Below are positions 43,387-54,310 of a stretch of 64,000 nucleotides of DNA, in pieces (positions within the stretch are counted from its first letter, which is position 1; each line of letters opens with the position of its first letter). A program made the translations under genes and the position numbers. Source of the DNA: Acidobacteriota bacterium (GTDB taxonomy: Bacteria > Acidobacteriota > UBA890 > WLXD01); NCBI GenBank assembly GCA_012103255.1, contig WLXD01000001.1, forward strand, positions 248,001 through 312,000, given 5' to 3'. The notes under the pieces were generated by a model, which searched no databases, was not told the origin of the DNA, and was given only the letters and a program-made list of their open reading frames with translations.

Positions 43387-44349
43387 TTGCCTAGCACCCG
43401 TCGTGATTTCGTCCGTCGAGCCGGATGGTCTGCCCTTGCAGCCACCGGCCTCAGCTCCACCATCACCACGATCGGCTGCCGCGCCGAGCAAGCTCCGGCT
43501 GAAGCCGAAGCGGTCGTCGCCGCGGCACCGTGGTTCAGAATCTCGCTCGCTGAGTGGTCGCTTCACCGCGCGCTGAACAACGGGGAGTTGACCAATCTCG
43601 ACTTCATCACGGAAGCCCGGCAAACCTACGGCGTCGAAGGCGTCGAGTACGTCAACGTCTTCTTCATGGACCGCGCCCGTGATCAGGACTACCTGGAAGA
43701 GATGCGTACCCGCTGCGACGGCGAGGGCGTGGAGAGTGTTCTCATCATGTGCGACGGCGAAGGACGCCTCGGCGACCCCGACGACGGCGCCCGCGGCACG
43801 GCCGTCCTGAACCACGTGAAATGGCTGGAAGCCGCCGCCTTTCTCGGGTGCCACGCAATCCGAGTCAACGCGGCGTCCGAGGGCACCTGGGAAGAACAAA
43901 GCGCACTGGCTGCGGACGGTCTCCACCAGCTCGCCGTTCACGGAGAAGAACACGGTCTCGACGTGCTTGTGGAAAACCACGGCGGCCTGTCATCCAACGG
44001 CGCTTGGTTGGCCGAGACGATCGGCCGCGGCGATCACGCGCGTCTCGGCACGCTGCCGGATTTCGGCAACTTCCGCATAGCCGAAGGGGACATGTACGAC
44101 ATCTATCAGGGCGTTGAAGAACTGATGCCGATGGCCCGCGCTGTGAGCGCGAAGTCGCACGACTTTGATGCCGATGGCAACGAGACCGCCAAGGACTATC
44201 GCCGGCTGCTTGAGCTCGTGCGAGACGCCGGCTACCGAGGCTGGGTGGGGATCGAATACGAAGGCACGATCGCACCCGAGCCGGAAGGCATCATGGCCAC
44301 GAAGCGACTTCTCGAAAACGTGCGCACCGAACTGGCCGCTGGCGCTTGA
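43387..44349 (+). CDS. Tat-exported xylose-isomerase-like TIM-barrel protein
   Basis: A 320-aa protein with a Tat signal (STRRDFVRRAGW) and a likely lipobox (TTIGC). The barrel has SLAEWSLHRALNNGEL, VEGVEYVNVFF, GCHAIRVNAASE and DVLVENHGGLSSN, ending with the metal-site Glu in GWVGIEYEGTI. This matches the sugar-phosphate isomerase/epimerase family, which binds a divalent metal and includes enzymes acting on 3-keto sugars. It starts at a TTG after GGAGGGAACC. It is opposite in strand to the Gfo/Idh cluster but close to it, and encodes an exported enzyme that fits 3-keto-glycoside chemistry. Confidence 0.78.
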   Translation: MPSTRRDFVRRAGWSALAATGLSSTITTIGCRAEQAPAEAEAVVAAAPWFRISLAEWSLHRALNNGELTNLDFITEARQTYGVEGVEYVNVFFMDRARDQDYLEEMRTRCDGEGVESVLIMCDGEGRLGDPDDGARGTAVLNHVKWLEAAAFLGCHAIRVNAASEGTWEEQSALAADGLHQLAVHGEEHGLDVLVENHGGLSSNGAWLAETIGRGDHARLGTLPDFGNFRIAEGDMYDIYQGVEELMPMARAVSAKSHDFDADGNETAKDYRRLLELVRDAGYRGWVGIEYEGTIAPEPEGIMATKRLLENVRTELAAGA

Positions 44350-44621
44350 GCGACTGGCTGCAGCTGCTCGTTTTCCTGCTCGTGGCGGCGGCGATCTTTG
44401 CCCTGATCAGCCGCGCCATGCGTAAGCGGGATGAGCGGTGGGAAAGCGAAGACTGGCGCCAGCCCGATCGCGACTCGGTGAAGTTCGGGACTCCGCTGCT
44501 CGAGATCCAGTCGATGTTGGAACCCGATCGCAAGCACCAGGTCGAGGAGACCCGGCGTGCCCGACTCGAGGAAGAAGAGTCGGGAGATCCGCCGGACGCC
44601 GGCCGTGCCGAAGACGACTGA
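44346..44621 (+). CDS. Small membrane protein of unknown function
   Basis: A 91-aa protein with one N-terminal membrane helix (LQLLVFLLVAAAIFALIS) and a charged, Arg/Glu-rich cytoplasmic tail. I do not recognise it. It starts at a TTG that shares bases with the stop of the TIM-barrel gene, which implies translational coupling and a shared operon with it and the VOC protein downstream. Confidence 0.6.
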   Translation: MSDWLQLLVFLLVAAAIFALISRAMRKRDERWESEDWRQPDRDSVKFGTPLLEIQSMLEPDRKHQVEETRRARLEEEESGDPPDAGRAEDD

Positions 44622-44649
44622 ACCAATGCGCTAGATGATGGAGAACCTA

Positions 44650-45030
44650 GTGGACAAGGCACAGATCGCCGGCGTGGGCCAGATCGCGATCAACACGCAC
44701 GACATCGAACGGGCCACAGCCTTCTATCGCGACACCCTCGGTCTACCGCATCTGTTCACCGCCGGCCCCATGTCATTCTTCGACGCTGGCGGCGTTCGCT
44801 TGATGCTGGCGATGCCCGACCGAGCGGAGTTCGATCATCCATCGTCGGTGATCTACTTCACCGTGAACGACGCCCGCGCGGCGTACGCGGAGCTGCACGA
44901 CAAGGTGAAGTTCCTGCAGGAGCCGCTGGTGGTTCACGCGACGGAAACGTCCGAGCTCTGGATGGCCTTCTTCCACGACACCGAGGGCAACACGCTCGCC
45001 CTCATGAGTGAGCTTCCGAAGGAGGCGTGA
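44650..45030 (+). CDS. VOC/glyoxalase-like protein
   Basis: A 126-aa protein with the betaalphabetabetabeta glyoxalase fold: GQIAINTHDIERATAFYRDTLGL at the start and FFHDTEGNTLALMS at the end. Metal ligands His and Glu are plausible (HDIE, DTEGN). Members open rings, isomerise or resist antibiotics; the substrate here is unknown. The start was set at the GTG at 44650, six bases after GGAG; ATG codons at 44635 and 44638 lack a site. It overlaps the next membrane protein gene by one base. Confidence 0.78.
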   Translation: MDKAQIAGVGQIAINTHDIERATAFYRDTLGLPHLFTAGPMSFFDAGGVRLMLAMPDRAEFDHPSSVIYFTVNDARAAYAELHDKVKFLQEPLVVHATETSELWMAFFHDTEGNTLALMSELPKEA

Positions 45031-45702
45031 TGGAGGTCCGCAAGGCGGCACTGCGACTCCTCATCGTCTCGATCCTCGTGAGTGGCGGTCTGGCCATCGG
45101 GGTTCTGCTCACGCCTGAGATGAGCCGAGGTGCGGCCAAGGTCTTGATCTCGGCGCTGGCGACGTCCGGTGCGAGTATTGCCGGCATGGCCTGCGGCGCC
45201 GCATGGGATCGTGACCGCTGGCGCGGTGCAGCCCTGACGGGATTGATGGTCGCAGGCGCATCGCTCGCCTTGACGCTGATTGCGATCTGGTTCGAACCTG
45301 AACCGATCAACACGATCATGAAGGCCGTCGGGACGTGTTGGATCTTCACGGCCGCAGGCGCTCACATCAGCCTGCTCGGGCTGGCGCCAGACGAGCCGAT
45401 CCTCGGGCGTATCCGAATGATCACCGTCGTCACAGCGCTGCTTCTCGCGGCTGGCATCGCACTGCCCGTCTGGACCGAGGATTTCGACAACGAGCCTTAT
45501 CAACGCGGCGTCGGCGTGATCGCGGTCATCACACTCATGGGGTCGCTCAGCCTACCCGTCATCGCGCGACTGCGCGCCCTTCCCGACGCGCCAGGCCCGT
45601 CGCCCGAGCCACGCCTGATGTGTCCGCGGTGCGGCCACGTGCAATCGGCCAAACTGGGGCCTGTGCAGTGCACGCTACCGTGTCGAGCTCGATCTGGACT
45701 AG
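45030..45702 (+). CDS. Six-helix membrane protein with a C-terminal zinc ribbon, likely frameshifted at its end
   Basis: About 210 residues of six hydrophobic helices (LLIVSILVSGG..., GVGVIAVITLMGSLSLPVI) followed by a zinc ribbon start CPRCGHVQSAKLGPVQC. In the first frame the ORF then runs on without stop for 1.6 kb antisense to the sialidase-like gene. That run has no family character. In the +1 frame the ribbon would finish as ARYRVELDLD and end with TAG at 45702, just where the convergent gene ends. A one- or two-base indel near 45,660-45,675 is the likely explanation. It starts at ATG 45030 with AAGGAGG before it, overlapping the VOC stop by one base. Function unknown. Confidence 0.6.
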
Positions 45703-47093
45703 CGCGTGCGCGCCGTCCACACGTCAGGCTGCGCACGAAGACGAGTGCTGATCCAGGCGGCCTGGAATGCATCCGCGGTCCCGACGAGCCCCATGTAGTC
45801 CCCCAGGAACCAGCCCCGGCTACTGTGCGCCGCGTTCCTCAGATCGAAGCTCTTACGTGTCATCCGGAAGGTCCGATCGAACGATCCTGCCGAGTCAGCC
45901 GAAATGCGCACGAACACGTCTGCCCTGACCGACCGAGTCGGATCGTTTTGCAGGCTGTAGTAGCTCACCCCGACTTCGCCTTCGCCGTTCACGGCGATCG
46001 CCGGCGTGAAGGCCGGAACATCCGCCGGTGCATCCACGACATCGGTAGGGGTCGACCACTTGCCGCCGCCGTTCGTCGACCTGGCAACCAAGATGCGCGG
46101 CACGTCGCTCCGGCTGTCCTGCCAGGCGACGTACAGATTCCCCTTCTTCGGATCGACTGCGAAAGAGGCCAGGCTGAATCCATCACGAACATCCGTCACG
46201 CTCGCCCCGACGATGTCCCACAAGCGTCGCGACTGCTTCCACGTACGCCCGCCGTTGTTGCTGGACGTGAGAAACAGCGCATAACGATTGGCGGGGTCAG
46301 CCCCCTCGGCCGTGAACAGCAGATAGACGCGGCCCTTCTTCCCCACGCGTGGAATCACTCCGCCACCGATCGCTCCGGTGCGCACGAGGCGGGGGGCTTC
46401 GAACGTCGCACCGTCGTCGAGCGACCGCGCGGAGTAGATGTCCTGACGGACGAATGCGTTGCCCGCGCTGTTGAGCACGTTCACATCCCAGGCGACGTAG
46501 ACCGTACCCGCGTACTTACTCCCAGCCACGGTGTCGACCGTGAGCGCGTTCTTGTCGTTGAAGTCGGGGTCCTTGGACTCAGTGACCACCGCGGGTGCGC
46601 CCCAGGTAAGCCCGCCGTCGGCCGAGCGACTCACGACGATCGCCGTGGGGAACGGAGCGGAATCGCCGCCCACGAGGCTGGAGTAGTACACGGCGCCATC
46701 GGGGCCGAACTCCGGCCACGGATCCGCCACGAGATCCCAAGGACCCGCGCGCGTTCCTGCATCGTGCGTCAGCCCGGGCAGAACCGTCTCTTTCCAGCGC
46801 TTGCCGCCATCGACAGAAACGGCGGCTACGTGCGCCTGCGCGGACCCCGCAAAGTAGCGATTCTCCTGCCACGCCGCGACAAGATGATCCGGGTCCTCGG
46901 GGTTGATATGGATGTAGGGCTCAGCCTGCGTCCCGCGCTGCGCGCCCGTCACATCATCGAGCACATCCGTGCTCACGCGCCGCGGCTGGGTCCCCTTCTG
47001 CGGCTTGTCTGCGGCGCTACCAACGTCGGGGAGCACGACAACCGCCAGACCAACAGCTCCAACGGCCAGCCAACTCAACCAGCGAACACGCAC
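45699..47093 (-). CDS. Secreted sialidase/BNR-repeat-like protein
   Basis: A 464-aa exported protein: signal peptide WLSWLAVGAVGLAVVVL cut near GSA-ADK, then six-blade propeller sequences with Asp-box repeats (SVDGGKRW, SADGGLTW, SLDDGATF, SNNGGRTW, STNGGGKW). These repeats are shared by sialidases and by other propellers; the catalytic Arg triad of sialidase was not identified, so exo-sialidase activity is unproven. It is the last gene of the sugar cluster, 40 bases from the DUF1080 gene. The start is a GTG with GGAGGGG five bases before. It ends at the stop of the convergent membrane gene. Confidence 0.75.
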   Translation of the reverse strand: MRVRWLSWLAVGAVGLAVVVLPDVGSAADKPQKGTQPRRVSTDVLDDVTGAQRGTQAEPYIHINPEDPDHLVAAWQENRYFAGSAQAHVAAVSVDGGKRWKETVLPGLTHDAGTRAGPWDLVADPWPEFGPDGAVYYSSLVGGDSAPFPTAIVVSRSADGGLTWGAPAVVTESKDPDFNDKNALTVDTVAGSKYAGTVYVAWDVNVLNSAGNAFVRQDIYSARSLDDGATFEAPRLVRTGAIGGGVIPRVGKKGRVYLLFTAEGADPANRYALFLTSSNNGGRTWKQSRRLWDIVGASVTDVRDGFSLASFAVDPKKGNLYVAWQDSRSDVPRILVARSTNGGGKWSTPTDVVDAPADVPAFTPAIAVNGEGEVGVSYYSLQNDPTRSVRADVFVRISADSAGSFDRTFRMTRKSFDLRNAAHSSRGWFLGDYMGLVGTADAFQAAWISTRLRAQPDVWTARTR

Positions 47094-47133
47094 GTACCCC
47101 TCCTCGCCCTCAAGGGCCGCCAGGGGATATCGC

Positions 47134-47820
47134 TCAGCTGTCGCTCAGATCCTTTACTCGGATATTGCGGAAGTAGACCGACGAGTCATGATCGTGGTTC
47201 TGCAGGCCGATGTAGCCGCGGTCTGCAAAGTCAGTCACCTTTCCACGTGGCTCAGCCATCCAGTCGACCACCTGTTCGCCGTTCAACCAGACCGTGATCT
47301 GGTCGCCGACGAAGCGGATGCGGTAGTCGTTCCACTGGCCGGTAGGCTTGGACTCGATGCTGGTGGACGGCTCCGCGTCGTACACGGCACCGGTCTGATG
47401 CACGCCGTTCGTCGAGGCATCGTGAATCTGAATCTCGAACGAGTGGTAGATGTACTCGTCGCTCGATGGCATCCCGGGCACGCGCACGAACACGCCTGAG
47501 TTGGACTCCTCGAGCGAAGTCTTGAACTCCAGACGCAGTTCGAAGTCCGAGAACTCCGTGGTGTGCCAGAACAGTCCCATGCCGCCGTGCGATGCGAGTT
47601 CGCCGGAGTCGACGTCGAGTTCAAAGTGCCCCGGTCCGTAGTGGTTCCAACCGCCCTTGTGGTACGTGCCATTGGCGTGACGCTGCAGCAGGTCGACGAA
47701 GCCGTCTTCCTGCGACGGTGCGGCGGCGCGCGCTGAGCCGAGTCCGGAGCCCAGCGCCACCAGGGCGGCCAGGCCGAAGAGAATTGCCGGCATGGGCAAA
47801 CGAGCTACGTTGATGTTCAT
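47134..47820 (-). CDS. Secreted DUF1080 (3-keto-disaccharide hydrolase-type) protein
   Basis: A 228-aa exported concanavalin-like beta-sandwich. A signal peptide (LPMPAILFGLAALVALGSG) precedes the typical GGWNHYGPGHFELDVD, SDFELRLEFK, NSGVFVRVPGM and WNDYRIRFVGDQITVWLNG segments. Proteins of this family act on 3-keto-glycosides, so it is a candidate catalyst for cleaving oxidised sugars. It starts at 47820 after GGAGGAAGC and overlaps the upstream Gfo/Idh gene by four bases. Confidence 0.85.
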   Translation of the reverse strand: MNINVARLPMPAILFGLAALVALGSGLGSARAAAPSQEDGFVDLLQRHANGTYHKGGWNHYGPGHFELDVDSGELASHGGMGLFWHTTEFSDFELRLEFKTSLEESNSGVFVRVPGMPSSDEYIYHSFEIQIHDASTNGVHQTGAVYDAEPSTSIESKPTGQWNDYRIRFVGDQITVWLNGEQVVDWMAEPRGKVTDFADRGYIGLQNHDHDSSVYFRNIRVKDLSDS

Positions 47821-49076
47821 GCTTCCTCCTGCGAGGCACGTGGGTTCCATTCGCCTCGGGCGACGGCGGGCACAAAGGTATCAAGTTCCGGGCACGGAAG
47901 ATGCACGGTCTGCTCACGTTCGGCGCTCATGTAGGCCGCCATCAACAGCTCGGTGACGCGGAGACCGTCCTCGAAGTTCTCCCAGGGTCGTTCACCGTTG
48001 CGGAACGCGCGCACCATGTAGCGGTTCTCGCCAACATAGCCGTATTCGGCCTCCTCGTCGGCCACCACCGGCATCATGCCCGTCTCGGCATTCTGTTTCT
48101 CGACAAGATCCTCGCCGGTGTTGCCCTGGACTTCGCGCGAGAAGAACACGCGCGGACCAGCATCCAGCGAGTTCATCGACATCGAGTACTCAGGGCCCAG
48201 CATCTCCATCGTGATCCGCAGTCCTGCGCCGACGTAGCACCAGGATGTAGTCGTTTCGACGACGCGCGGATTGCCATCGGGGTCGCGGAATTCCACCAGG
48301 GCGCGTGCGTAGTCCTCTGACGGCTTCTTGAGGTAGTCGTTCATGCCGTCACTCGCAGCACGCAGCTGCTCGGCGTATCGCGGCTGCTGCCACTTGAGGC
48401 AACTGGCGTAGCAATTGACGCTGACCGGCGTGAGCGAGTCGCGCGGCGCGCCAGGCTCGGTCAGGAGGAAACGCGCCGCCTCAACGGAGTGGCACATCAT
48501 GTCGTTGATCACGCCGCCGCCCTGGAGTTCTCCGGACCAGAACCATGGCATGTGCGGTCCGGAGTGCTCTTCGGCAGCCCGCGCCAGGTATGGCGGTCCG
48601 GTGAGCGCCGCGCCGCGGGACCAGACGACGTCTTTCACGCGCTCCACGGCAGGCGTGAAGAGTTGGTTCTCGAGATACCCGTCCAGAACGTCGATCTGAC
48701 CCACCAGATCGACCATCTTCCGGGCTTCGGCCACATTGCGGGCCAGCGGCTTCTCGCACGCCACGCCCACGAGTTCGCCAGCTCCCGATTTCACCGCGGC
48801 GACGATCTCTTCCATCACGTCGATGCGCGTGAAGTTCGGCGAACAGATCCAAATCGCGTCGATGCTCGGGTCCGCAACCATCTCGGTGACGGTAGGGAAC
48901 GCCTGCGCGTCGCCAACGTCGCAATCGCGCGCCAGCTGGGCGGCCTCTTGCGCTGTCTCCAGCCGCCGGCTCACCACGCCTCGGACGTCGGCACCGCGCA
49001 CCGATTCAAATGAACGAATGTGGAACCGGGAGACGAATCCCCCGCCCACGATGCCGATCCCGAGAGGCTTGGTCAT
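47817..49076 (-). CDS. Cytoplasmic Gfo/Idh/MocA-family oxidoreductase
   Basis: A 419-aa NAD(P)-binding enzyme without signal peptide. The Rossmann motif GIVGGGFVSRFHIRS (8-22), IWICSPNFTRIDVM and the catalytic CEKPLARNVAEA (Lys in EKP) are clear. The C-terminal sheet holds GGGVINDMMCHSVEAARFLL. Members oxidise or reduce sugars and inositols; reduction of a 3-keto sugar is the role suggested by context. The start at 49076 is 2 bases after the MFS stop. Confidence 0.85.
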   Translation of the reverse strand: MTKPLGIGIVGGGFVSRFHIRSFESVRGADVRGVVSRRLETAQEAAQLARDCDVGDAQAFPTVTEMVADPSIDAIWICSPNFTRIDVMEEIVAAVKSGAGELVGVACEKPLARNVAEARKMVDLVGQIDVLDGYLENQLFTPAVERVKDVVWSRGAALTGPPYLARAAEEHSGPHMPWFWSGELQGGGVINDMMCHSVEAARFLLTEPGAPRDSLTPVSVNCYASCLKWQQPRYAEQLRAASDGMNDYLKKPSEDYARALVEFRDPDGNPRVVETTTSWCYVGAGLRITMEMLGPEYSMSMNSLDAGPRVFFSREVQGNTGEDLVEKQNAETGMMPVVADEEAEYGYVGENRYMVRAFRNGERPWENFEDGLRVTELLMAAYMSAEREQTVHLPCPELDTFVPAVARGEWNPRASQEEA

Positions 49077-49078
49077 GG

Positions 49079-50278
49079 TCAGTTCGCTACCGCCGGCTCG
49101 CGGTCGTCCTTGAAGAAGAGTAGATACGCGACGGCGCACCCGATGGTGATCGCGCAGGGCACCAGGAAGACCGTCGTCCAGTCGGTCACTCCGTCAACGG
49201 TGAATCGATTCTGCACCCAGCCCGCGAAATTGCTGCCAACGAAGCTGCCGATGCCGAGGGTGACAATTGCGATCAGGCTCTGCGCCGAGCCTCGGATGTC
49301 CGGCGGCGCGAGACCATCCACGTAGATGAACGCAGCCACAAAGAAGAAGACGTAGCAGAACCCGTGGAGGGTGAGCGAGGCGACGACCAGCCACCACGGC
49401 GCGCCGATCGCGAAGATCACGTAGCGGATCGGCCAGGCAATCACGCCGAGCGCAAGCGTCGCCCGCATGCCGTACTTCTTCAGGAACCACGACAGCACCA
49501 CGGCCACCACGAAGATCTCGGCAATCTGCGCGATGGTCATCACCGCCGGCACGCTGGCCGATGCGATACCGATGCGAGCCGACTCCAGGTAGGGCCCGGT
49601 GAGCACATAGTAGAACTGCAACTCGGTGGCCACAACGAACGAGATCGCCATGAACGTGGCGAAGTTACGATCGCCGAGCATGCGTAGCGCCTCGAGGAAC
49701 GCCCACGGACTGGACGACTCCTTGTTGGGCGGCGTGTGCGGCAGCATGAACGACTGCAGCCCCATCACGATCGAGAACACACCCGCGAGCATGAGCATAT
49801 CGCCGCTGCCGGCGCCGCCCATCGTGCGCCACGCGGTCAGCGCCCACCCGGCCGCGATCCACCCGATCGTGCCCCACACCCGCACGCGGCCGAACTCGTC
49901 TTCCGAACTCTCGAGGTTCGACATCGCGATCGAGTTGGTCAGTGCGAGCGTCGGCGCATAGAGCAGGCAGTACACGAGCATCACCGTGACGAGCTCGCCG
50001 TACTCGGTGACCGTCGACGCGTACATGAGCATCCCACCGCCGGCCAGCTGCAGCACCGCGATGACCTTCTCGGACGCGAAGTAGCGGTCCGCAAGCTGCC
50101 CGCCGACGAACGGCGCAATGATGGTTGCCAGGGGCAAGAGCGAGTACACAAACCCGACCTGCGCCCCGGTGAACGACAGCTCGCCGAACAGATGGGCCGA
50201 CAGCACCGGCGCCCACGCACCCCAGATGGCGTACTGCAGGAACATCATGGCGCCCAGCTGGAACTTGGCGCCGCCCAT
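49079..50278 (-). CDS. MFS transporter, nucleoside:H+ symporter-like
   Basis: A 399-aa carrier of about 12 helices, beginning FQLGAMMFLQYAIWGAWAPVLS. It resembles the NupG/XapB nucleoside:proton symporter family: LSFTGAQVGFVYSLLPLATI, GGQLADRYFASEKVIA and SNLESSEDEFGRVRVWGTIGW. Relatives in sugar clusters import sugars or glycosides, so its substrate may be a sugar derivative here. It shares a base with the stop of the upstream oxidoreductase (TGATG overlap), within a tightly packed operon. Confidence 0.85.
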   Translation of the reverse strand: MGGAKFQLGAMMFLQYAIWGAWAPVLSAHLFGELSFTGAQVGFVYSLLPLATIIAPFVGGQLADRYFASEKVIAVLQLAGGGMLMYASTVTEYGELVTVMLVYCLLYAPTLALTNSIAMSNLESSEDEFGRVRVWGTIGWIAAGWALTAWRTMGGAGSGDMLMLAGVFSIVMGLQSFMLPHTPPNKESSSPWAFLEALRMLGDRNFATFMAISFVVATELQFYYVLTGPYLESARIGIASASVPAVMTIAQIAEIFVVAVVLSWFLKKYGMRATLALGVIAWPIRYVIFAIGAPWWLVVASLTLHGFCYVFFFVAAFIYVDGLAPPDIRGSAQSLIAIVTLGIGSFVGSNFAGWVQNRFTVDGVTDWTTVFLVPCAITIGCAVAYLLFFKDDREPAVAN

Positions 50279-51897
50279 CAGACGATCTGCTGCTGGACCG
50301 GGTCCCACTCCACCTTGCGGCCGAGCTGATAGGACATGGTCGCCATGTGGCAGGTGATCGCTTCCTCGAAGCCGCGATCGATGTTGCACGCCGGCTCGCC
50401 GCCGAACCGGATCGTGTCGAGCCAGTCCTTGATGTGGAGCCAGAGCGTGGAGACTCGCTGGCCGCCGCGATAGGTGAAGAGCAGTCCGCGACTGGCGAAG
50501 TACTCCTCGGTTGCGGTGGTCACCGCATCGAGGCCACGGAAGCCCGGGCGATAGGTCAGCAACGGTCGGTCCGGATCCACCACCTCTTCCTCGATCATGT
50601 CGGCGTAGCGCGTCGACAGCGGCTCGGCGAGCACACGCACTCCGGACCCGACCTCCATCGCCGCGTCGTGGCCCATGAAGACCTTGCCGCGACCGCGGCC
50701 CGAGGCGAGAGTGGCGCTGTAGAGCAGCGTCAGGTCACGCTCCGGGTACTCGTAGGCAACCTGGAAGGTATCCGGGACATCGCGCCCGTCCTTGTAGTGG
50801 TAGATCCCACCAGACGCCATTGCGGACTTCGGGATACCTACTCGCATGATCTGGTTCACGGCGTCGTATTCATGTGAGAGCAGGTCGCCGCCCAGGCCGG
50901 TGCCGTAGTCGAACCAACAGCGCCAGCGGAAGAACCGCTCGAGCGAAAACGGAACGTCGTGTCCGGCGTTCTCCTGGAACTGGGCCCAGTCGATCGTGTC
51001 CGGGTTGCCGTCCGGGTGAATGTCCCACACCCAGGCACCCCAGCGATCGTTGCGATTGGTCGTCGTCTCGATCAGGGTGACGGGGCCGAGAATTTCTTTC
51101 TCATAGACCTCTCGCGCTTTCTCGTGGCTCTCGAGCTGGCGGTTCTGATGGCCGAGCTGGAACTTGATGCCGGACTCCTTCACGGCATTGACCACCGGCA
51201 GCACTTCGTCGGCCGTACGTGTCATCGCCTTCTCGCAATACACGTGCTTGCCCGCGGCGGCCGCATCGATCGTGATCTGCGCGTGCCAGTGATCCGGCGT
51301 CGCAATGATCACCGCGTCGAGATCAGGATCCTCGAGCATCTCGGTGTAGCGCTGGTAGCGAGTGGCACCACGTCCGGCTGGCGCTCCGCCAGGCCGCGTC
51401 TCGATGCTCGAGGCGGCGACCGCGCGGTTGGCCCGGTGGTCGAACAGATCGCACACGCCCGTCAGTTCGAGATTCAGGTCACCGTGCGCCAGATACTCCT
51501 CCAGGCGTCGATTCCGTGGATCGTTGATCTGCGCCTGGCGCTGTGTGTCCACCCAATCGGGTGCCGGGAAACCCGCCGCGCGAACGAGAGCCTCGCCCTC
51601 ACCGCCGTAGCCGATGATGCCAACATTGATCCGATCGGAAGGAGGTCGCGACGTCAGTCGGTCGATGATCGCCGGTGCGTCACCCGTAACTCCGAGTTCG
51701 TCGACGATCGCCTGACGCTTCGCGTCGTCGGCCGACCGTTTCGCCCAGGCTGTTGCACCAAGCGCGCCGAGCACGGGGATCGTGGCCAGGCCCTTGAAGA
51801 GGCTGCGGCGGTCGACGCCCGCCCCGCTGCCGGAGTCGCCGGCGGACTGCTTCGGGCTCTTGTCTTCGGGCGCTTTCGGGTCGTTCTGGTCGCTCAT
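50278..51897 (-). CDS. Tat-exported Gfo/Idh/MocA-family oxidoreductase
   Basis: A 539-aa protein with a long polar leader and a Tat signal (VDRRSLFKGLATIPVLG). The cofactor motif INVGIIGYGGEGEALVR (90-106) is followed by AVIIATPDHWHAQITIDA and the catalytic lysine in YCEKAMTR, so the family is certain; GFOR-type periplasmic members keep NADP tightly bound. Export would place sugar oxidation in the periplasm. It overlaps the DoxX gene by 4 bases upstream and the MFS gene by 1 base downstream. Confidence 0.85.
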   Translation of the reverse strand: MSDQNDPKAPEDKSPKQSAGDSGSGAGVDRRSLFKGLATIPVLGALGATAWAKRSADDAKRQAIVDELGVTGDAPAIIDRLTSRPPSDRINVGIIGYGGEGEALVRAAGFPAPDWVDTQRQAQINDPRNRRLEEYLAHGDLNLELTGVCDLFDHRANRAVAASSIETRPGGAPAGRGATRYQRYTEMLEDPDLDAVIIATPDHWHAQITIDAAAAGKHVYCEKAMTRTADEVLPVVNAVKESGIKFQLGHQNRQLESHEKAREVYEKEILGPVTLIETTTNRNDRWGAWVWDIHPDGNPDTIDWAQFQENAGHDVPFSLERFFRWRCWFDYGTGLGGDLLSHEYDAVNQIMRVGIPKSAMASGGIYHYKDGRDVPDTFQVAYEYPERDLTLLYSATLASGRGRGKVFMGHDAAMEVGSGVRVLAEPLSTRYADMIEEEVVDPDRPLLTYRPGFRGLDAVTTATEEYFASRGLLFTYRGGQRVSTLWLHIKDWLDTIRFGGEPACNIDRGFEEAITCHMATMSYQLGRKVEWDPVQQQIV

Positions 51898-52379
51898 CGG
51901 TTACCTCCTCGCGTCAGGTAGGCGTCAAATCCGACCTGGTGTCCCGTGGGGAACAGCCACAACACGATCATCGCTACGCATTCGATCAGGGTCTTGTTCA
52001 CAATCAGATAGGAGCCCTCGGCAGGAGCGCTGCTCTCGATGCCCGGCCACGGCGGCGTGCCGAGGTAGTAGAGCCCGAGCAGCACGGCTCCCATGAGGGT
52101 CGCGAAGCGCGAGAACACCCCGAGGATCAACGCAAGGCCGATGAGCGTGAGTCCCCACTGATTGAGCACGTCGACCACGGTGAGGCGGCCCGGATCTCCC
52201 GCCATCCACAGATAGAGGCCCGCGAGCGGTCCCTGCGAATCGGCCAGAAAGCCAGCTGAGGTCCAGTAGGGGTTCCACAGCTTCGCGATTCCTTCGTATA
52301 GCAGATGCCATCCGATCAGGATCCGAAGCGCGGCCATCGCCCACAATCGGGCTCCGGTGAGTGACGCGGAATTGCTCAT
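51894..52379 (-). CDS. DoxX-family membrane protein
   Basis: A 161-aa membrane protein with four helices in the order of DoxX (MAALRILIGWHLLYEGIAKL at the N-terminus, LNQWGLTLIGLALILGVFSRFA). DoxX family members sit in quinone or electron-transfer contexts and appear with Gfo/Idh oxidoreductases. The start at 52379 overlaps the apbE stop (ATGA), and the stop overlaps the oxidoreductase start (ATGA). Confidence 0.83.
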   Translation of the reverse strand: MSNSASLTGARLWAMAALRILIGWHLLYEGIAKLWNPYWTSAGFLADSQGPLAGLYLWMAGDPGRLTVVDVLNQWGLTLIGLALILGVFSRFATLMGAVLLGLYYLGTPPWPGIESSAPAEGSYLIVNKTLIECVAMIVLWLFPTGHQVGFDAYLTRGGNR

Positions 52380-53464
52380 GGCGTATTGGGGGTGCCGGCG
52401 CCGGGGCGCCAGTTCTTGGTGGTGTGCTGGCGGCCCGTCGCGTCGACGATCAGGCCGGAGCAACCGGGGACAGATTCGATGGTTCGAAGTCCGGCGCCTG
52501 GTCCGGCAACGAAAGCAGCTGTGGCCAGGGAGTCGGCAAACGTGGCGCTCGGAGCGCGCACCGTCACCGCAAGGCAGTCGCCTGGCGAGACACCGAAGGC
52601 ATTTACGATGTGATGCTGGGTACGTTCGCGATCGAAGTAGATTTCGTAGCTTCCTGACGTCGCGACAGCGCCGGCGAAGAGCGGCAGCACGTCGAGCTCG
52701 GCGTCCGGACTTTCCGGGTTTCGCACGCCGACCTGCCATGGAAGATCACCATCTCGGGTTCCGCCCGTGCGGACATCTCCACCGGCGTTGATCAGGAAGC
52801 CTTCAGCCTCATCCACCGCCGCCGCCATACGATCGACGATGTAGCCCTTGGCGATCCCGTCGAGAGTCACCGACACGCCGTCACGCAGTCGTACATCGTG
52901 ACCGTGGATGGCCACGCCGGTCGCGTTGACCCGGGCACGCGCCGCATCGATGAGCCCACTATCGGGTGGCCCGGCCAGTCCGCGCTCCCGATGATCACGG
53001 AATACGTCGATCACCGGAGCCACCGTCATGTCGAATGCGCCGTTGCTCGCTGCCTGAGTGAACTGGGCCCTGCGTAACACCTCGATGAACTCGGGCGGCG
53101 CGGCGCGCAGGCGAGCACAGCTATTGAGCACACCAAGTGCGCTCGCGTCGTCGTATCGGTTGAACAGGTCGATCGTGCGGTGCATCTCCGCATAGGCTGC
53201 GGCTGCCCGTTCGAGTGCGCGATCAGCGCTCTCATCGAGCACGGAGACAGATACGACCGTTCCCATCGCCGGCAGAGCTTGCGAGACCCGAACCCGGTTG
53301 CGGCCGATGGGGTCGATCTCGGTGAGCGTTGGCTCGGGGTCGGGGGCCGCTGCCGACTCGAACCCAAGCTCCAGCAAGGCCGCGAGGTTCCGCGTCCGGC
53401 GCTGTACTTCGGATTCGTCGAGCTTGTGCAAGGGCGGCCTCGTCGAACAGGGACGCCGGAGCAT
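52376..53464 (-). CDS. apbE: FAD:protein FMN transferase
   Basis: A 362-aa ApbE-like enzyme that transfers FMN from FAD to a threonine or serine of exported proteins. Seen are AMGTVVSVSV, NRYDDASALGVLNS, TLDGIAKGYIVDRM, INAGGDVRTGG and GVSPGDCLAVTVRA, with the metal-site Thr/Asp region ATFADSLATAAFVAG. It has no obvious signal peptide or lipobox, unlike many ApbE proteins; a region upstream is open in another frame and hints at a lost N-terminus or frameshift. It leads the sugar-cluster operon. Its FMN-accepting partner is not visible. Confidence 0.85.
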   Translation of the reverse strand: MLRRPCSTRPPLHKLDESEVQRRTRNLAALLELGFESAAAPDPEPTLTEIDPIGRNRVRVSQALPAMGTVVSVSVLDESADRALERAAAAYAEMHRTIDLFNRYDDASALGVLNSCARLRAAPPEFIEVLRRAQFTQAASNGAFDMTVAPVIDVFRDHRERGLAGPPDSGLIDAARARVNATGVAIHGHDVRLRDGVSVTLDGIAKGYIVDRMAAAVDEAEGFLINAGGDVRTGGTRDGDLPWQVGVRNPESPDAELDVLPLFAGAVATSGSYEIYFDRERTQHHIVNAFGVSPGDCLAVTVRAPSATFADSLATAAFVAGPGAGLRTIESVPGCSGLIVDATGRQHTTKNWRPGAGTPNTP

Positions 53465-53686: not shown

Positions 53687-54310
53687 ATGAGACGACAACA
53701 AGCTGTCCACGAGTACGCGGTGCGGCTGCGAAGCGCCGCCGCAGCAATGGCCGCGGGGTGCGCATTCGTGCTGACGTCAGTTGCACCGGTTCAAGGCACC
53801 CCTCCCCAAGAAGATGGCTGGTTTCCAGCACTGGTGAACACCGAGATCATGGTGCTGGAGAATGGCCTCGCACTCGGCGGATATGACCCCGTTGCGTACT
53901 TCGAGCAAGGCGAAGCACAGCTTGGCGACGAGGAGATCTCTCTCGAGTGGCGCGGTGCAACCTGGGTCTTCGCCTCGGCGGCTCATCGCGAACTGTTTCG
54001 GGTCGCGCCCGAGGACTACGCGCCGCAGTATGGAGGCTGGTGCGCGTACGGAGCGTCGGGACACGGTGAGGAGGGCTATGGAGCTCAATCCCGCCCCAGC
54101 GACAGCTGGTCGATCATCGACGGCAAGCTCTATCTGAACTGGAACCCCGACGTCGTGGAGTGGTTCCGCGCCGACGAGGACCAGCTGATCCGTGCTGCCG
54201 ATCGACAGTGGCCGGATTTGAGTGAAGGCATCCGATCCGGCGATCCGGTCCATTGGCAGACCGTGCCGCGCAAGTATCGAGAGTCGGAGCGGCGGTTGCC
54301 GCCGGCGTAG
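53687..54310 (+). CDS. Secreted YHS-domain protein
   Basis: A 207-aa protein with an N-terminal hydrophobic segment (AAAAMAAGCAFVLTSVAPVQG), then a YHS region: GLALGGYDPVAYFEQG, WRGATWVFASAAHRELF and YAPQYGGWCAYGA. YHS proteins are thought to handle metal ions. The C-terminal half adds a further 90 residues with NWNPDVVEWFRADEDQ. Start at 53687 after GGAGT. Divergent from apbE across a 222-base gap that holds a short CTAGG/CCTAG inverted repeat and no clear promoter. Confidence 0.75.
   Translation: MRRQQAVHEYAVRLRSAAAAMAAGCAFVLTSVAPVQGTPPQEDGWFPALVNTEIMVLENGLALGGYDPVAYFEQGEAQLGDEEISLEWRGATWVFASAAHRELFRVAPEDYAPQYGGWCAYGASGHGEEGYGAQSRPSDSWSIIDGKLYLNWNPDVVEWFRADEDQLIRAADRQWPDLSEGIRSGDPVHWQTVPRKYRESERRLPPA

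Follow-up and report, generated by a model that had tools for sequence, protein, structure and literature searches.

The window analysed here is a stretch of 64,000 nucleotides from an Acidobacteriota bacterium (assembly GCA_012103255.1, contig WLXD01000001.1, forward-strand positions 248,001 to 312,000) and carries on its minus strand a gene cassette that is best read as coding for a periplasmic 3-keto-glycoside route, in which the exported dehydrogenase may bear a covalent flavin. In order of transcription the genes encode an ApbE-type FAD:protein flavin mononucleotide (FMN) transferase (52376-53464, start codon uncertain), a DoxX-like four-helix membrane protein (51894-52379), a Gfo/Idh/MocA oxidoreductase with a twin-arginine translocation (Tat)-type N-terminus (Tat-Gfo; 50278-51897), a major facilitator superfamily (MFS) carrier of the Nuc_H_symport family (49079-50278; PF03825, E 8.6e-102), a signal-less Gfo/Idh/MocA oxidoreductase predicted to be a 3-keto-sugar reductase (47817-49076; PF01408, E 1.9e-17, with a CEKP motif conserved in 37 aligned sequences) and a DUF1080 / 3-keto-disaccharide hydrolase domain protein with a Sec-like signal (47134-47820; PF06439, E 2.1e-40), followed by a BNR-repeat gene. 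The ApbE/DoxX, DoxX/Tat-Gfo and Gfo/DUF1080 junctions are ATGA overlaps, the Tat-Gfo stop overlaps the MFS start (TGATG) and the MFS/Gfo gap measures 2 bases, with a longer spacing only between DUF1080 and BNR. The genes from ApbE to DUF1080 form one tightly coupled six-gene operon with ApbE as its first gene.

An initial annotation of this DNA had combined DUF1080, the two Gfo/Idh/MocA enzymes, a Tat-exported TIM-barrel protein, the MFS carrier and DoxX into one pathway. All of these genes were located at 43387-53464, through profile matches for TIM, DUF1080, both Gfo proteins and MFS and through a DoxX match that is weak singly and recurs in 39/39 family members. The grouping stood for the five operon genes and in part only for the Tat-type TIM-barrel (xylose isomerase-like) protein (43387-44349, plus strand, TTG start with GGAGG upstream; PF01261, E 1.4e-21; PDB 4ovx, E 1.2e-102, an entry named by fold alone), which is linked to the cassette but not co-operonic. 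As this gene and that of a VOC protein (44635-45030, plus strand) lie on the opposite strand, some 2.8 kb away from the closest gene of the cassette, both were placed outside the operon. N-termini were judged by eye and agreed with the annotated export signals on three enzymes (Tat-type for the TIM barrel and the Tat-Gfo, Sec-like for DUF1080) and with a layout of exported enzymes beside a signal-less Gfo. The DUF1080 protein scored 139.2 bits against the curated PF06439 cut-off of 26.8 and is single copy in the 4.8 Mb genome, in which PF01408 has nine matches, eight of them above cut-off.

The Tat-Gfo belongs to the Gfo/Idh/MocA proteins by profile (PF01408, E 1.1e-15) and by fold (4koa; Z 34.1, root-mean-square deviation 2.8, 323 aligned residues), and it is predicted to act as a glycoside 3-dehydrogenase. 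Its closest curated family is the glycoside 3-dehydrogenase model NF058561 (BT_2158; E 8.5e-32). The match, 110.3 bits for residues 178-388, stays far below the equivalog threshold of 750 bits, so that the Tat-Gfo is like the BT_2158 family and not a member of it. Sequence matches among solved structures were led by PDB 8tdf (E 1.5e-20), followed by 8tdh (E 1.1e-19). The arginine pair RR30/31 is kept in at least 90% of 73 aligned Tat-Gfo-like open reading frames (ORFs) and is invariant in 33.

A scan with one genome per species yielded 116 Tat-Gfo relatives, of which 80 were kept for analysis: 66 loci at 44-85% identity, a few cut by contig ends, and 14 at 25-30%. These were found in Acidobacteriota, Gemmatimonadota, Aminicenantes, Neomarinimicrobiota, Calditrichota, Zixibacteriota, Flavobacteriaceae and Melioribacteraceae, nearly all as metagenome bins, and the Tat-Gfo constitutes a family of its own that spans several phyla and usually adjoins DoxX. 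All 9/9 examined genomes of the host order possess it (the host included; the other eight at 52-85% identity, one in two pieces), in comparison to a best, partial-length match of 42% among the 90 remaining genomes of the phylum. Neighbours were counted by tblastn with the window proteins in loci with sufficient flank, a procedure that divergent forms escape, and comprised DoxX in 51/56, MFS in 34/54, the signal-less Gfo in 32/49 and DUF1080 in 30/42 loci, the last of which bears out the annotated expectation that the DUF1080-Gfo pairing recurs in relatives. ApbE was found within 8 kb of the Tat-Gfo in 29/49 loci and directly upstream on the same strand in 25/66. This gene association exceeds chance.

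A TIM barrel of the window type lies near the cassette in 9/66 loci. DUF1080 proteins have a median length of about 490 residues in 17 loci, and at the only one of these that was scanned (L094, 14204-15673), with which the other 16 cluster, a TIM barrel is fused to the DUF1080 N-terminus, hinting that barrel and DUF1080 may act jointly. At locus L086 another TIM barrel with a twin-arginine N-terminus adjoins the Tat-Gfo. Because of this fusion and this neighbour, the TIM barrel is considered part of the pathway despite the position of the window copy outside the operon.

A strict scan for [ST]GA[ST] over every cassette family returned nothing conserved. Comparison of ApbE-adjacent with ApbE-free loci, using a loosened motif, exposed DAVTSAT at Tat-Gfo residues 457-463, which we regard as a predicted flavin-attachment motif; in the window it reads D457-A-V-T-T-A-T463 (50509-50529, minus strand). 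The accepted ApbE motif is D-x-x-[S/T]-G-A-[S/T] (PMC12052999). The loose pattern D..[ST].A[ST] fits 63/66 sequences at this position, counted over the window and 65 loci with the incomplete L095 left out, and D457 and A462 are invariant in 33 aligned Tat-Gfo sequences. An initial idea that the motif is exclusive to ApbE-adjacent members was rejected, as both groups carry it. Among 2093 other ORFs of the window-type loci (520,030 residues, spurious frames included) the pattern D.[VI][ST][GST]A[ST] occurred once and D..[ST]GA[ST] three times, and 0/6 Gfo paralogue ORFs in the same loci had the motif at the aligned place. Four Gfo paralogues (L083_8, L084_7, L085_0 and L086_5) match the loose pattern only as DAVS(V/I)AT, which we read as a probable Rossmann strand; since the pattern also strikes this segment of ordinary Gfo proteins, motif scans of Gfo sequences must be tied to position. 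We did not accept as motifs AGAT in the planctomycete Gfo proteins of L100 and L109 or GGATW in L098/L099. In the AlphaFold model of the Tat-Gfo, residues 454-474 have a predicted local distance difference test (pLDDT) value below 50, with a helix from T463. Mean identity is 0.84 for the seven motif residues and 0.76 for the 454-474 stretch, in comparison to 0.72 for the protein core; the motif is hyperconserved although the model predicts it to be disordered.

The canonical form of the motif was found in a second family of exported Gfo proteins. The exported Gfo at locus L101 is 29% identical to the window Tat-Gfo, adjoins a DUF1080 protein and carries DGVSGAT. A search covering 247 genomes at class level and 395 at phylum level, two sets that overlap, produced 21 loci, of which 18, full length and at least about 43% identical, had DGV[ST]GA[ST] in 17/18 cases and DGVAGAT in one; the remaining L129, L148 and L149 had no motif of this type. 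The second-family motif aligns with that of the window Tat-Gfo, and the canonical version is present in Bacteroidota. Two loci place it directly in an ApbE context on one strand, L150 as ApbE-Gfo(DGVTGAT) and L151 as ApbE-Gfo(DGVSGAT)-DUF1080.

The cassette ApbE itself is a clear family member (PF02424, E 2.9e-57; 194.6 bits against a cut-off of 25.6) with conserved AKG, GGD, HH and D-A/S-L-x-T positions across 35 sequences. By eye, no signal peptide is seen on same-strand cassette ApbE proteins whose N-terminus is readable, and opposite-strand ApbE proteins appear lipoprotein-like; cytosolic ApbE enzymes are known (PMC12052999). The other ApbE of the host genome is lipoprotein-like and is encoded next to the Nqr genes, some 2.6 kb away from NqrC, which is the only FMN_bind match of the genome and has its own motif, DGLSGAT; DUF2271 and DUF3570 had no match in this genome. 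Because the other ApbE sits in the Nqr neighbourhood and further target families gave no match, the cassette ApbE looks dedicated. ApbE was present in 45/45 tested genomes that hold such loci. Within the host phylum it occurred in 9/9 order members with the Tat-Gfo in comparison to 50/90 others, and among the second-search genomes in 21/21 in comparison to 27/37 listed without a match (Fisher p ~0.007 in each comparison, kinship uncorrected). Divergent from the operon lies a gene for a small protein that appears YHS-like by eye (53750-54310, plus strand); as a candidate ApbE target it was dropped, having no Pfam match at E<=0.001.

The DoxX-like protein of the window matched PF07681 weakly (E 8.8e-4; 20.3 bits against a cut-off of 23.6), and the same profile was matched by 39/39 family members at E<=1, with a best value of 1.1e-11. 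Its model (pLDDT 90) returned nothing at E<=0.001 with Foldseek. Further fold comparison gave NACHO/TMEM35A (Z 11.7, root-mean-square deviation 3.2, 122 aligned residues) and the membrane part of the vitamin K-dependent carboxylase GGCX (Z 9.0, 3.5, 129 aligned residues; below the ~13 advised for helical bundles). As judged from the predicted model, both resemblances are too weak to carry a function.

The initial annotation had described the layout as unfamiliar. Its elements are on record: BT2158 of Bacteroides thetaiotaomicron has been termed a periplasmic glycoside 3-dehydrogenase (PMC11300592), BT2157 is a 3-ketotrehalose hydrolase of the DUF1080 type, and alongside the lactose 3-dehydrogenase LacABC a DUF1080 hydrolase has been proposed to work in the periplasm (PMC9007349). 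Since these systems and the Agrobacterium steps have been described, the layout is not new in itself. The BT2156-BT2160 cluster resembles the window in pairing an exported Gfo with DUF1080 for periplasmic C3 oxidation followed by cleavage, but the accessible text of PMC9007349 and PMC11300592 makes no mention of ApbE, DoxX or a flavin motif for it; deletion of BT2157 or BT2158 caused no growth defect on raffinose-family sugars (PMC11501099). The Alistipes glucoside-3-dehydrogenase AL3 (8tdf), the best solved-structure match, shares the Gfo fold but only 18% identity with the window Tat-Gfo in structural alignment. The Agrobacterium GlycDH-AtOGE-AtHYD-Gfo operon likewise proceeds from C3 oxidation through a TIM-barrel eliminase and a likely hydratase to a Gfo reductase (PMC10628242), whereas oxidation there is performed by the flavoenzyme GlycDH and not by a Gfo, and DUF1080 is absent from the text of that article. 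Caulobacter LacABC-DUF1080 is similar in that a membrane-linked periplasmic sugar C3 dehydrogenase feeds a DUF1080 protein (PMC9007349), but the dehydrogenase is different and the link in the window would consist of FMN and DoxX on a Gfo. Extracytosolic enzymes flavinylated by ApbE (fumarate and urocanate reductases, NqrC, RnfG, NosR and PceC) share the ApbE motif and the wiring to a respiratory chain, while a Gfo/Idh/MocA target is not named for them in the accessible text and 'MocA' occurs in none of the three articles concerned (PMC8238504, PMC11334425 and PMC12052999). In a literature search that left subscription papers and preprints mostly outside, MocA and ApbE were joined only in an unrelated seaweed study, no relevant paper connected DoxX with Gfo or DUF1080, and no paper joined three of MocA, DoxX, quinone and glucose-fructose oxidoreductase. 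The unusual part of the locus went unnoticed in the initial annotation: the ApbE gene, its linkage with DoxX and Gfo, and the Tat-Gfo motif that resembles an ApbE site.

A nicotinamide enzyme that has been exported has no way to swap its NAD(P) with the cytosolic pool, and hydride may instead be handed to another sugar, as in glucose-fructose oxidoreductase. The best explanation of the locus, to which we assign a probability of roughly 0.55, is a periplasmic 3-keto-glycoside operon with a covalently flavinylated, membrane-wired dehydrogenase. The Tat-Gfo would fold in the cytosol with nicotinamide bound, and the signal-less ApbE would attach FMN to Thr463 of DAVTTAT prior to export. Once exported, the Tat-Gfo may oxidise the C3 hydroxyl of a glycoside, with hydride passing to the bound nicotinamide and then to the tethered FMN, from which electrons would reach quinone by way of the DoxX-like membrane protein. 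Cleavage of the 3-keto-glycoside, possibly by elimination and hydration, would fall to the exported DUF1080 protein, in some cases together with a TIM barrel, the MFS carrier would import the keto-sugar and the signal-less Gfo would reduce it to an ordinary sugar. Such pathways are known; what would be new is a flavinylated Gfo that works with DoxX. Confidence is moderate because the window motif differs from the canonical form in one residue and all functions are predicted.

The alternative that survives best concerns the substrate, which may not be a simple glycoside at all and may be an inositol, an anhydrosugar, a sulfosugar glycoside or a C-glycoside, with the redox wiring unchanged. Fold neighbours of the Tat-Gfo at Z 31-34 span anhydrofructose reductase, DgpA, sulfoquinovosidase and levoglucosan dehydrogenase, and neither window Gfo reaches any curated NCBIfam cut-off. 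We consider this possible although doubtful because PF06439 recurs as a partner in 30/42 loci, one characterised PF06439 protein being the 3-ketotrehalose hydrolase, though another is an endo-xanthanase/lichenase.

Several observations weigh against a flavinylated, membrane-wired dehydrogenase. Three sequences fall outside the loose pattern (DAVTTPT twice, DAVASAT once), and the canonical G is always S or T in 66/66 window-type sequences, so that the window form is not canonical; a G to A change halves flavinylation in one ApbE target (PMC12052999). In addition, 20/49 window-type loci have no nearby ApbE, most second-family loci are without neighbouring ApbE or DoxX, and exported Gfo proteins beside ApbE are free of the motif at L100, L102, L103, L105, L107, L109, L129, L148 and L149, where either the site differs or ApbE has another role. 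The role of DoxX as electron acceptor is suggested by linkage and by the weak GGCX fold resemblance. These points can be interpreted as an ordinary BT2157/BT2158-type pathway, in which a second sugar substrate reoxidises the tightly bound nicotinamide, the motif would be a loop of structural value and ApbE and DoxX would have other tasks. The enzyme classes are indeed those of the described systems, and the missing G and the motif-free proteins beside ApbE are what it would lead one to expect. We nevertheless regard it as rather unlikely, for it leaves unexplained a near-invariant motif in a predicted disordered loop, the canonical motif in 17/18 of the second family, the coupled ApbE-DoxX-Gfo order and the presence of two ApbE genes where the genome has a single FMN_bind match. 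That the cassette ApbE flavinylates another protein, an Nqr subunit or a target elsewhere, and owes its place in the operon to a co-regulated redox module is improbable, because, although ApbE targets can sit elsewhere in a genome and the host has Nqr genes with SGAT motifs, the Nqr cluster owns a lipoprotein-like ApbE ~2.6 kb from its FMN_bind gene and the cassette enzyme shows no export signal and stays with the Tat-Gfo across two phyla.

If flavinylation and membrane wiring of the Tat-Gfo are correct, they would explain how a nicotinamide enzyme trapped outside the cytoplasm disposes of its electrons, and glycoside oxidation would become an energy-yielding respiratory step. In more general terms, the two exported Gfo/Idh/MocA families may represent a new class of ApbE substrates that combine nicotinamide with covalent FMN in a respiratory role, with a DoxX-like acceptor in the family of the window, which we hold to be slightly better than an even chance. 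This would supply a target for some orphan ApbE genes and a testable role for DoxX. The system resides mainly in uncultured Acidobacteriota, Gemmatimonadota, Aminicenantes and Neomarinimicrobiota, and the canonical-motif genes of Bacteroidota can be expressed now.

Among the minor observations, the secreted-looking BNR-repeat protein (45699-47093, minus strand) lies directly 3' of DUF1080, and its gene had no tblastn match in the loci fetched from relatives. In a planctomycete (L100:343-3374) a DoxX-like protein, a signal-less ApbE and a Tat-Gfo stand in a row, followed by two TIM-like proteins; the TIM-like and DoxX-like readings were made by eye, the DoxX-like gene of 154 residues having no Pfam match, and this Tat-Gfo is 25% identical to that of the window and lacks the motif. 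Leptobacterium flavescens strain KCTC 22160 (L107:9022-14762) has ApbE, Tat-Gfo, TIM, MFS and a further Gfo in one direction, with no flavin motif in the first Gfo. At L083, L084, L085, L086 and L095 a second Gfo of another type lies upstream, accompanied in some cases by DUF1080, DUF6807 or an SSF transporter, which suggests that the Flavobacteriaceae and Melioribacteraceae bins hold larger glycoside clusters.

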